Source: Pararoseomonas baculiformis
Lineage (GTDB): Bacteria; Pseudomonadota; Alphaproteobacteria; Acetobacterales; Acetobacteraceae
Direction of reading: 5' to 3'
Length of the DNA stretch: 64,000 bases
Assembly (NCBI RefSeq): GCF_017813395.1
Contig: NZ_JAGIZB010000011.1
Coordinates: 62,001-126,000 of the forward strand
The notes below the pieces were generated by a model. The model made no database searches, was not told where the DNA came from, and was given only the letters and a program-made list of their open reading frames with translations. Both the position numbers and the translations under genes were made by a program. Each line of letters begins with the position of its first letter. Position 1 is the stretch's first letter. Shown here piece after piece: positions 48,281-57,032 of the stretch.

Positions 48281-50357
<2,077 letters not shown>

Positions 50358-50373
50358 CATCAGTTGTTAATCT

Positions 50374-50399
50374 GCGCGCGCCGCGGGCGCGGCGCGCGC
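50374..50399 (+). terminator. Strong GC hairpin after eno
   Basis: GCGCGCGCCGC (50374-50384) and GCGGCGCGCGC (50389-50399) form an 11-pair perfect stem with loop GGGC, 16 bases after the eno stop. No T-run follows (GCAACG), so efficiency is uncertain. Confidence 0.5.
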
Positions 50400-50522
50400 G
50401 CAACGTCCACAGCTATTTCCGCAACCCAGCCGCGAAACGCCTTGCGCCGCAGCGCAGCGACGATTTTACTCCCTCCCAGGGGATCATTCCGATCGGCCGT
50501 ACGCTCTTCGGGGGAGGGGCAG

Positions 50523-50852
50523 TTGGCTTTCTTAAGGGGGGTGAAGCGCCGGCTGCAGGGCCTGGTGCTTCCAGTCATTTTCTTTGGCCTGTGCGCCTAC
50601 TTTGCGCATCACGCCACGCATGGCTCTCGCGGGCTGCTGGCCCGCGACGCGCGCAATGCCGAGATCGTCGCAGCACGCATCGTGCTTGCGGAGGCCGAGG
50701 CGGAGCGTGACGCCATGGAACGCAAGGTGGCCGGCCTGCGTGCCGAGCACCTGGACCGCGACATGCTGGAGGAGCGCGCACGCGCCCTGCTGAACGTCGT
50801 GGCGAAAGACGAGATCATCATTCCCTATGCGCCGAACCGCCGCCTCTTCTGA
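50523..50852 (+). CDS. ftsB: FtsB/DivIC family septum formation initiator
   Basis: Small bitopic cell-division protein linking FtsL, FtsQ and the septal peptidoglycan synthase. One membrane helix at about 13-32 (LVLPVIFFGLCAYFAHHATHG) and a periplasmic coiled coil (about 43-82, EAEAERDAMERKVAGLRAEHL) followed by the family's DMLEERARALLN motif. 109 residues from TTG 50523, which has GGGAGG at proper distance; GTG 50541 (103 residues) is the alternative. The eno-ftsB-pdhA order is conserved. Confidence 0.9.
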   Translation: MAFLRGVKRRLQGLVLPVIFFGLCAYFAHHATHGSRGLLARDARNAEIVAARIVLAEAEAERDAMERKVAGLRAEHLDRDMLEERARALLNVVAKDEIIIPYAPNRRLF

Positions 50853-50911: not shown

Positions 50912-51022
50912 CGTTCATGGGTGCCGAAGCCGGCGGGGTGTCCGGTCGTTAAGGGTAAAATCATCCGGGTCGGATGGCGGGCGGTACCTGCGCCGGCCCG
51001 TCGCTGCGCGCCACCAAGCATG

Positions 51023-51041
51023 TTAACCGTAAATTGGTTAA
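51023..51041. promoter_or_regulatory. Inverted repeat TTAACC-N7-GGTTAA
   Basis: TTAACC (51023-51028) and GGTTAA (51036-51041) are exact reverse complements seven bases apart. TTAACC resembles a CtrA half-site, but the spacing does not fit the classic TTAA-N7-TTAA arrangement. Confidence 0.45.
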
Positions 51042-51046
51042 TCGCC

Positions 51047-51063
51047 ATGTTGCAATGCAACAT
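51047..51063. promoter_or_regulatory. Palindrome ATGTTGCA-A-TGCAACAT
   Basis: Eight-base perfect arms around a single A, six bases after the neighbouring inverted repeat and about 100 bases upstream of pdhA. It has the look of a dimeric repressor or activator site. Confidence 0.55.
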
Positions 51064-51164
51064 CAAGCACTTAGGCGAGTCTTGTAACTTGCTCATCCCC
51101 TGGGGCGACCGTATCTGGCAAATCAAGGCCACCCCTCGGCCCACTGATACGCAGGAGCATCCCC

Positions 51165-52199
51165 ATGGCCCTCGGGACGGATAACGCGGCGAAGCGCCGC
51201 AACGGACGCGGCAAGGACTCCCCCCCAGGCACCGGCCATAACCAGGACACGCTGGGCAAGGCCTACCGGGACATGCTCCTGATCCGCCGCTTCGAGGAGA
51301 AGGCGGGCCAGCTCTATGGCATGGGGCTCATCGGCGGCTTCTGCCACCTCTATATCGGGCAGGAAGCCGTCGTCGTCGGCATGCAGATGACGCTGGAGGA
51401 AGGTGACGAGGTCATCACCTCCTACCGCGACCACGGCCACATGCTGGCCTGCGGCATGGAAGCCCGCGGCGTGATGGCCGAGCTGACGGGCCGCATCGGC
51501 GGCTATTCCAAGGGCAAGGGCGGGAGCATGCACATGTTCTCGCGCGAGAAGGGCTTCTATGGAGGCCACGGCATCGTCGGCGCGCAGGTTTCCATCGGGA
51601 TCGGCCTGGCCTTCGCCAACTGGTACCGCGAGGACGGCAAGGTCGCGCTGGCCTATTTCGGCGAAGGCGCCTCCAACCAGGGCCAGGTCTATGAAAGCTT
51701 CAATCTCGCCGCGCTGCTGAAGCTGCCCTGCGTCTTCATCATCGAGAACAATCGCTACGGCATGGGCACCTCGGTCGAGCGTGCCTCGGCCTCAAAGAAC
51801 CTTTCGCAGAACGGTGCGCCCTGGGGCATCCCGGGCGAGCAGGTGAACGGCATGGATGTGCTCGCGGTGAAGGCCGCCGGCGAGCGTGCCGTGGCGCACT
51901 GCCGCGAGGGCAAGGGCCCGTATCTGCTGGAGATGCAGACCTACCGCTATCGTGGCCACTCCATGTCCGACCCCGCGAAGTACCGGACGCGGGAGGAGGT
52001 GCAGAAGATGCGCGACCAGAGCGACTGCATCGAACTGGTCCGCAAGATGCTGATCGAGGGCGGCACGAGCGAGGCCGAGCTGAAGGCCGTTGACGACGAG
52101 GTGAAGGCTATCGTGCAGGACAGCGCCGATTTCGCGCAGTCCAGCCCCGAGCCCGACGAATCCGAACTCTGGACCGACGTTCTGGTGGAGAGCCGCTGA
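51165..52199 (+). CDS. pdhA: Pyruvate dehydrogenase E1 component, alpha subunit
   Basis: Thiamine-diphosphate half of the E1 heterotetramer that decarboxylates pyruvate. Conserved blocks: [66 protein letters not shown], the phosphorylation-loop-like [15 protein letters not shown], and the ThDP motif region [19 protein letters not shown] ... IENN. Residue 167 is Glu where the family's GDG motif normally has Asp. 344 residues. Followed two bases later by pdhB. Confidence 0.97.
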
Positions 52200-52200
52200 C

Positions 52201-53655
<1,455 letters not shown>

Positions 53656-53667
53656 GGGGCGGGTTCC

Positions 53668-55056
53668 ATGGCCACCAACATCCTGATGCCCGCCCTGTCC
53701 CCGACCATGACGGAGGGGACGCTCGCCCGCTGGCTCAAGAAGGAGGGCGAAACGGTCAAGTCCGGCGATGTCATCGCCGAGATCGAGACGGACAAGGCCA
53801 CGATGGAGTTCGAGGCCGTGGATGAGGGCATCCTCGGCAAGATCCTGGTCCCGGACGGCACCGAGGGCGTGAAGGTCAACCAGCCCATCGGAATCATGGT
53901 GGATGAGGGCGAGGCCGTGCCCTCCGGCGATGGCGCGGGGAGCGCGCCGACGGCCGGGGAGAAGGGGCCTGCCCCGTCACCCTCGGGCAGCCCGGCGCTT
54001 GAGGCCGTGCAGGCCTCTGGCGGCAAGGTGGCAGGCGCGGCCGAGCAGCCGGTTTCCGCACCGGCGCCCGCGGCGCAGGCTCCGGCCGCGGCACCATCGC
54101 CGGGCGGGCAGGGGGGGCGGATCTTCGCCTCGCCGCTCGCCCGCCGCATGGCGGAGCAGGCCGGCATTGACCTGGGCGGGGTGAAGGGCTCCGGCCCGAA
54201 CGGGCGCATCGTGAAGTCGGACATCGAGGCGGCCCAGTCTTCCGGTGCTTCCTCGCCGAAGACGGCCGCGGCGCCCCAGGCCAAGCCGGCCCCGGCCCAA
54301 CCCGCGGCGGCCCCGGCACCGGCCGCGGCGCCCAAGGCCCCGGCTCCGGTGATCACGGCGCCGCACAAGCTCGTGCCGCATTCCTCCATGCGGAAGGTCA
54401 TCGCCCGCCGCCTTTCCGAGGCGAAGCAGACCATCCCGCATTTCTACGTCTCCATCGACGTGGAGCTGGATGCGCTGATGAAGCTTCGCGCGGACCTGAA
54501 TGCGCGCTCCCCGAAGGAGGGCGCGGGCGCCTACAAGCTTTCGGTGAACGACCTCGTCATCAAGGCCGCCGCCGCCACGCTGCGGAAGCTGCCCCAGACC
54601 AACTCCTCCTGGACCGACGAGGGAATGGTCATCTACGACGATGTCGATATCAGCATCGCCGTCTCCATCCCCGACGGGCTGATCACCCCGATCATCCGCA
54701 AGGCCGACCAGAAGGGCCTGGCCACCATCTCCAGCGAGATGAAGGACCTGGCCGCCCGCGCGAAGTCCGGGAAGCTGAAGCCCGAGGAGTTCCAGGGCGG
54801 CGGCTTCTCCATCTCGAACATGGGCATGTTCGGGGTGAAGGAGTTCTCGGCCATCATCAACCCGCCCCAGGCCGGCATCCTGGCGGTTTCGGCGGGCGAG
54901 AAGCGGCCGGTGGTGAAGGGCGACCAGATCGCCATCGCGACGGTGATGACCGTGACCCTCTCGGTCGATCACCGCGTGATCGACGGCGCCCTGGCGGCGG
55001 AATGGGTTTCGACCTTCAAGTCGATCGTCGAGGACCCGCTGAGCCTGATGCTCTGA
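53668..55056 (+). CDS. pdhC: Pyruvate dehydrogenase E2, dihydrolipoamide acetyltransferase
   Basis: Core of the pyruvate dehydrogenase complex, moving the acetyl group from lipoate to CoA. Lipoyl domain (about 1-78, K43 in IETDKATM), Ala/Pro linker, peripheral-subunit-binding domain (about 152-188, FASPLARRMAEQAGIDLGGV), second Ala/Pro linker, and catalytic domain (from about 235) ending with the active-site SVDHRVIDGALAAEW (His435, Asp439). 462 residues with a single lipoyl domain. Twelve bases separate it from pdhB. Confidence 0.97.
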   Translation: MATNILMPALSPTMTEGTLARWLKKEGETVKSGDVIAEIETDKATMEFEAVDEGILGKILVPDGTEGVKVNQPIGIMVDEGEAVPSGDGAGSAPTAGEKGPAPSPSGSPALEAVQASGGKVAGAAEQPVSAPAPAAQAPAAAPSPGGQGGRIFASPLARRMAEQAGIDLGGVKGSGPNGRIVKSDIEAAQSSGASSPKTAAAPQAKPAPAQPAAAPAPAAAPKAPAPVITAPHKLVPHSSMRKVIARRLSEAKQTIPHFYVSIDVELDALMKLRADLNARSPKEGAGAYKLSVNDLVIKAAAATLRKLPQTNSSWTDEGMVIYDDVDISIAVSIPDGLITPIIRKADQKGLATISSEMKDLAARAKSGKLKPEEFQGGGFSISNMGMFGVKEFSAIINPPQAGILAVSAGEKRPVVKGDQIAIATVMTVTLSVDHRVIDGALAAEWVSTFKSIVEDPLSLML

Positions 55057-55066
55057 GGCCCAGCCC

Positions 55067-55555
55067 GTGACGGACGCCGCCCCGTTCACACTGCGCGACG
55101 CCACCCCGGCCGACCTGCCGGAGGTGGTGCGCCTGGTCCGCGAGCTGGCGGATTACGAGAAGCTGCTGCATGAGGCGGTGGGCACGGTGGAAGACTTCCG
55201 CGCCCTCCTCTTCGGCGAAAAGCCGCTGCTGCACGCGGTGCTGGCGGAGCTGGACGGGCGGGTGGTGGGCCAGGCGCTCTGGTTCAACAATGTCAGCACC
55301 TTCACGGGCAAGCCGGGCATCTACCTCGAGGACATCTTCGTGGAGCCGACTTCCCGCGGCCTGGGCATCGGTACGGCATTCTTCCGCTACCTGGCCCAGA
55401 GGGCCGTGCGGGAGGGCTGGACGCGGCTGGACTGGCAGGTGCTGGACTGGAACGACCCCTCCATCGCCTTCTACCGGAGCCTCGGGGCCCAGTCCGGCAA
55501 CCAATGGATCAACCAGCGCCTGAGCGGCGAGGCGCTGCGGCGCCTCGCGGCCTGA
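55067..55555 (+). CDS. GNAT N-acetyltransferase, diamine acetyltransferase-like
   Basis: 162 residues with a complete GNAT fold. TLRDATPADLPEVVRLVRELADYEKL at the N-terminus, IYLEDIFVEPTSRGLGIGTAFFRYLA (acetyl-CoA loop R/Q-x-x-G-x-G/A as RGLGIG, about 94-103) and LDWQVLDWNDPSIAFYRSLGA match the spermidine/spermine or diamine acetyltransferase subgroup; actual substrate is not known. GTG start ten bases after pdhC, so it probably belongs to the pdh transcript, inserted between pdhC and lpdA. Confidence 0.9.
   Translation: MTDAAPFTLRDATPADLPEVVRLVRELADYEKLLHEAVGTVEDFRALLFGEKPLLHAVLAELDGRVVGQALWFNNVSTFTGKPGIYLEDIFVEPTSRGLGIGTAFFRYLAQRAVREGWTRLDWQVLDWNDPSIAFYRSLGAQSGNQWINQRLSGEALRRLAA

Positions 55556-55637: not shown

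Positions 55638-57032
<1,395 letters not shown>

Follow-up and report, generated by a model that had tools for sequence, protein, structure and literature searches.

A conserved composite operator before the pyruvate dehydrogenase operon: a predicted PhaR site at fixed distance from a candidate operator of a separate regulator

The two inverted repeats that precede pdhA in the window (by which we mean the whole analysed stretch of 64,000 nucleotides) form a real, conserved composite operator of the pyruvate dehydrogenase operon, one half of which fits a known regulator, PhaR, while the other half is separate. We hold with good confidence that the promoter of pdhABC-lpd carries a module in which PhaR acts at the second repeat (element B) and a separate dimeric regulator acts at the first (element A), with help from IHF or PhaR. 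The sites themselves, their conservation, their fixed spacing, the motif match, the co-occurrence with phaR and the near-single-target specificity were all computed, and the features concerned are these.

49074-50357: enolase, upstream of the ftsB/divIC-like gene; start taken from reading the translation
50364-50852, + strand: ftsB/divIC-like gene (PF04977), upstream of pdhA; true start probably further in
51023-51041, no strand assigned: element A, a 19-bp dyad TTAACC-N7-GGTTAA (exactly TTAACC-GTAAATT-GGTTAA), candidate operator of a dimeric regulator
51047-51063, no strand assigned: element B, a 17-bp palindrome ATGTTGCA-A-TGCAACAT, predicted PhaR (AniA) operator
51051-51059: core of element B, TGCAATGCA, at offset 28 from the start of A
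51061-51073, + strand: putative IHF-like site CATCAAGCACTTA, overlapping the 3' end of B, at offset 38 from A
51088-51093, + strand: predicted -35 box CTTGCT, 65 bp from the start of A
51112-51117, + strand: predicted -10 box TATCTG, with an 18-bp spacer to the -35 box
51165-52199, + strand: pdhA, pyruvate dehydrogenase E1 alpha (TIGR03182, PF00676)
52201-53655, + strand: pdhB, E1 beta with an N-terminal lipoyl domain (Pfam domains)
53668-55056, + strand: pdhC, E2 dihydrolipoamide acetyltransferase (PF00198)
55638-57032, + strand: lpd, E3 dihydrolipoamide dehydrogenase (PF07992, PF02852)

Both repeats are where the initial annotation placed them, and the region upstream of pdhA is indeed AT-rich, with 39% G+C at 51020-51090 against 70% for the window. 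The gap between the repeats is 5 bases (51042-51046) rather than the six that had been given. A gene for a GNAT acetyltransferase (55067-55552) lies inside the operon, between pdhC and lpd.

Conservation in related species, on which the initial annotation had staked its reading beforehand, is what we find. Among 120 genomes from the window's GTDB family, a search for PdhA gave a match in 117, some of them distant paralogues; upstream DNA was taken for 110 genomes (30 + 80 loci), and 109 regions were usable, since the region of locus L079 is too short and was excluded from the counts. Element A, counted as present when at least 10 of 12 positions match, stands in 61 of the 109, and B in 65. The two occur together in 57 regions; 4 have A without B, 8 have B without A and 40 have neither. 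The PhaR-type core YGCRNYGCR lies at offset 28 or 29 from A in 57 of the 61 regions with A (28 bp in 24 cases, 29 bp in 33), and no other offset from -60 to +90 has more than two matches. The CTTG of the putative -35 box is likewise held in place, at offset 61-66 in 58 of these 61 promoters.

For element B the most probable reading is a PhaR (AniA) operator, as predicted from its sequence; this rests on the fit to the consensus, a phaR gene in the same genome, B-like sites at phasin and depolymerase genes, the co-occurrence of B with phaR, and a precedent in Bradyrhizobium. The core TGCAATGCA meets YGCRNYGCR, or TGC-N3-GCA, and the former is the PhaR motif of Sinorhizobium meliloti (PMC12542648). 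Apart from one degenerate position, B also fits TGCRNYGCASMA, the PhaR consensus of Bradyrhizobium diazoefficiens, for which the exact 12-mer TGCAATGCAACA of B is given at blr6443 (PMC6201568), and the S. meliloti phaP2 site TATTGCATTGCACA (PMC12542648) closely resembles the B consensus of the family. Variants of B in the nearest relatives, TTGCAACGCAA (L003) and CTGCAATGCAG (L013), retain the dyad.

The genome of the window itself encodes PhaR (G000:C66; PF07879, and TIGR01848 above cut-off). The full 17-bp palindrome occurs once in its 5.25 Mb, with none for the reversed-pattern control, and so is not scattered at random, which had been the other worry of the initial annotation. There are 12 further B-like sites, including those before the phasin gene (L124, PF09361) and the PHA depolymerase gene (L118, PF10503, NF050058). 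Most of the other B-like matches lie in or near genes with no evident relation to PHB, and B alone is thus weakly specific. Across the family, 64 genomes have both B and phaR, 1 has B only, 22 have phaR only and 22 have neither (Fisher p = 6e-10, uncorrected for phylogeny, so that shared ancestry may contribute). Put differently, B is found in 1 of the 23 genomes where phaR was not found, that one being 88% complete, and is missing at pdhA in 22 of the 86 phaR-positive ones. A regulator of the ScfR/RamB type was also considered for B; the paired near-identical boxes 18 bp apart that are described for it in the part of the source available are absent here.

The connection between PhaR and pdh is already known, as PhaR-dependent activation of pdh has been reported in three species. 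In a phaR mutant of B. diazoefficiens pdhA is lowered, that is, PhaR-activated, and its pdhA DNA gives a gel shift, a weak one (PMC6201568); pdhA is lowered likewise in Methylorubrum extorquens, with PhaR-dependent activation of pdh (PMC6520949); and the pdh proteins of S. meliloti are PhaR-activated (PMC12542648), although its PhaR site table (Table 3) holds no pdhA site. The genome studied here shares with the PhaR/AniA regulons of Sinorhizobium, Bradyrhizobium and Methylorubrum the core match and the phasin and depolymerase targets; in Bradyrhizobium pdhA, too, is reported to be under PhaR activation. What differs is that B sits at a rigid distance behind A, across an IHF-like site, and that the Bradyrhizobium pdhA site TGCAGTGCGGCA is not the same in sequence as B (PMC6201568). 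The rigid placement of B and its conservation in this family are not seen in the available portions of those PhaR papers.

We turn to element A, for which the evidence suggests, at the level of sequence, a nearly single-target operator of a separate dimeric regulator, B being the more familiar half. With up to one mismatch, TTAACC-N7-GGTTAA has a single match in the 5.25-Mb genome (reversed-pattern control 1), and even when 3 mismatches are allowed the class-wide consensus, a 19-bp dyad TTAACYGAA-W-TTCRGTTAA, finds the pdhA site alone (1 control match forward, 0 reverse). Exact A is present in 41 of the 120 family genomes, nearly all of them single-site; the exceptions are G068 with 8 sites and G006 with 2, and in G022 and G073 the exact A is located away from pdhA. 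The TTAAC arms are near-invariant over many families, and the conservation of the dyad is base-specific. A matrix trained on the family regions was applied to a held-out class-wide draw of 89 upstream regions; 31 of these score at least 12, and with the reversed control 1 of the 89 does.

A scan of 84,980 species genomes with TTAACYGAWWTTCRGTTAA gave at least 119 stretches, of which 80 were taken as loci, 52 of these 80 being from Alphaproteobacteria or Proteobacteria MAGs. Among the matches listed, pdhA begins within 270 bp downstream of exact A in 49 of the 52 alphaproteobacterial loci, and exact A precedes pdhA in 50 if one counts L327, whose sequence ends just past ftsB, the usual upstream neighbour, and which is therefore a pdhA locus by inference. 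The listed match in Pontibaca is not at pdhA and falls inside a reading frame. In Caenispirillum salinarum (L372:6202-6220) exact A lies just before a gene that reads as NADP-malic enzyme, possibly a second target at the pyruvate node. Outside Alphaproteobacteria, pdhA was found at 0 of the 28 exact A loci among the matches listed. In a class draw of 385 genomes, with one mismatch allowed, an A-type site occurs in 52 genomes, and of the 49 such loci that were examined 24 belong to pdhA, while most of the other 25 come from AT-rich genomes or fall within ORFs; at loci with G+C of at least 50%, 6 of 27 are also away from pdhA. The pdhA count includes L304, which ends after enolase-ftsB, and excludes L298, a paralogous TPP enzyme (40% identity) that we dropped from the hand-made counts.

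Several further A-type dyads deserve to be recorded. G068 (L193-L199) carries eight exact TTAACC-N7-GGTTAA dyads, one of them at pdhA; they are possibly a dispersed palindrome. Most of the extra sites fall within genes or at gene ends, and we did not accept them as a regulon. G380 has two more with one mismatch (L292, L293) beyond the one at pdhA. In G022 an exact dyad (L201:1638-1656) stands between a gene for a CtrA-like response regulator and a fliI-like gene, and pdhA has no A.

The identity of the protein that may bind A is not evident from the neighbouring genes: within the available flanks, no evident regulator gene lies upstream in the 6 of 73 pdhA loci that lack both enolase and ftsB there (L298 being one of the six), and the 7 HTH_8 genes of the genome gave no candidate. 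Element A also departs from the 16-bp core GTTA(N)T(N4)A(N)TAAC of the mycobacterial TetR-type BkaR. In function, the gammaproteobacterial GntR-family regulator PdhR is alike, as its operator serves the pyruvate dehydrogenase operon; the E. coli site is ATTGGT-N3-ACCAAT, and both A and B, compared by eye, are unlike it, as the initial annotation had rightly noted. In several lineages PdhR is described as controlling this operon alone (PMC5343134). The suggestion that an unfamiliar regulator is at work holds for A, whose dyad we could assign to no named regulator, and is not supported for B, given its fit to the PhaR/AniA operator, its tracking of phaR and the Bradyrhizobium pdhA precedent.

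A third component of the promoter may be IHF. Its consensus, which we take to be WATCARNNNNTTR with 9 specified bases, is matched by the window's own site CATCAAGCACTTA at 8 of 9. We scored 76 deduplicated A loci (those of the class draw together with loci taken by name or by pattern, a few of the named ones being from the window's own family): at offset 37 or 38 from A, 32 of the 76 match this assumed consensus at 8/9 or better and 44 fall below, and any other offset, in either orientation, gives at most 5 matches. The PhaR core stands at offset 28 or 29 in 13 of the 76, where it overlies the IHF position. A good IHF match is found in 1 of these 13 loci; where the core is missing, the figure is 31 of 63 (Fisher p = 0.006, uncorrected for phylogeny). 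In family promoters that have B, the IHF-like position is mostly degenerate; the window's own promoter has both B and the IHF-like site. As in IHF-assisted promoters, the putative IHF site would hold a fixed place, downstream of a dyad and ahead of the -35 box. Unlike in those, the -35 and -10 boxes look sigma-70-like, a sigma-54 promoter being rejected by eye, and the IHF site here is a predicted one.

It could be argued that a single regulator, for instance a tetramer on both dyads, uses A and B as one operator, and that the likeness of B to PhaR sites is incidental. Indeed both are dyads, and the 28/29-bp spacing is fixed in nearly all family promoters with A. In our opinion this is nevertheless very improbable, as the two dyads have no common half-site and either can occur without the other (4 of the 61 family regions with A lack B, and 8 of the 65 with B lack A), the PhaR core accompanies A in so few regions outside the family draw (13/76), and B-like sites precede PHB genes while A is nowhere else in the genome. 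The independent loss of A also bears on the idea that A is a structural or promoter-spacing element with no protein partner. That idea agrees with the AT-rich region and with the absence of an adjacent regulator gene at the pdhA loci; it does not agree with base-specific conservation of near-invariant TTAAC arms over many families, and we find it scarcely credible.

A more serious objection is that A belongs to a global alphaproteobacterial regulator already known, such as CtrA or one of the NtrC/Fis type, for which pdhA happens to be the best site. TTAACC resembles a CtrA half-site, and the dyad of G022 beside a CtrA-like gene is in keeping with this. The CtrA site is a direct repeat, TTAA-N7-TTAA, whereas A is an inverted repeat and reads TTAA-N11-TTAA; furthermore, a global regulator should have weaker sites, and none appears in the genome at up to 3 mismatches. 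For the Fis type, one may point to bll4785 of B. diazoefficiens, a Fis-family gene that is numbered two from pdhA (bll4783) and is PhaR-repressed (PMC6201568, Table 2); apart from this argument, it is a possible candidate for the regulator of A. On balance we regard a global regulator as unlikely.

We thus return to a composite module with PhaR at B and a separate dimeric regulator at A. Transcription would start near 51124, which would place the centre of A near -91, that of B near -68 and that of the IHF-like site near -56. Binding, the direction of regulation, the part of IHF and the nature of the regulator of A are what we infer. When PHB is low, free PhaR would bind B near -68 and activate pdh; as PHB granules form, PhaR would be titrated away and the supply of acetyl-CoA would fall. 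At phasin genes PhaR acts as a repressor, hence activation from B is an argument by analogy. Element A, near -91, would be bound by its own dimeric regulator, with pdhA as main or sole genomic target, aided by IHF-induced bending of the DNA, or by PhaR at promoters whose PhaR site overlaps the IHF-like one. This regulator would more likely be an activator than a repressor.

A wider reading, to which we give about even chances, is that A is the operator of a pdh regulator widely inherited in Alphaproteobacteria, a one-promoter counterpart of PdhR assisted by IHF, and that in PHB-storing lineages a PhaR site was laid over the IHF position, tying storage to the supply of acetyl-CoA. B is a further case of known PhaR operators; A is the part for which we found no description in the open-licence PMC literature. 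Its 19-bp operator offers a direct handle to find the regulator in genera that are easily handled in the laboratory, among them Sinorhizobium, Rhizobium and Azospirillum. Pyruvate dehydrogenase is the gate into both the TCA cycle and PHB synthesis, and PhaR is the protein that senses this stored bioplastic. The overlaid PhaR site indicates a way in which, in many species, the storage of carbon may act back on the supply of acetyl-CoA, a matter relevant to producers of bioplastic.
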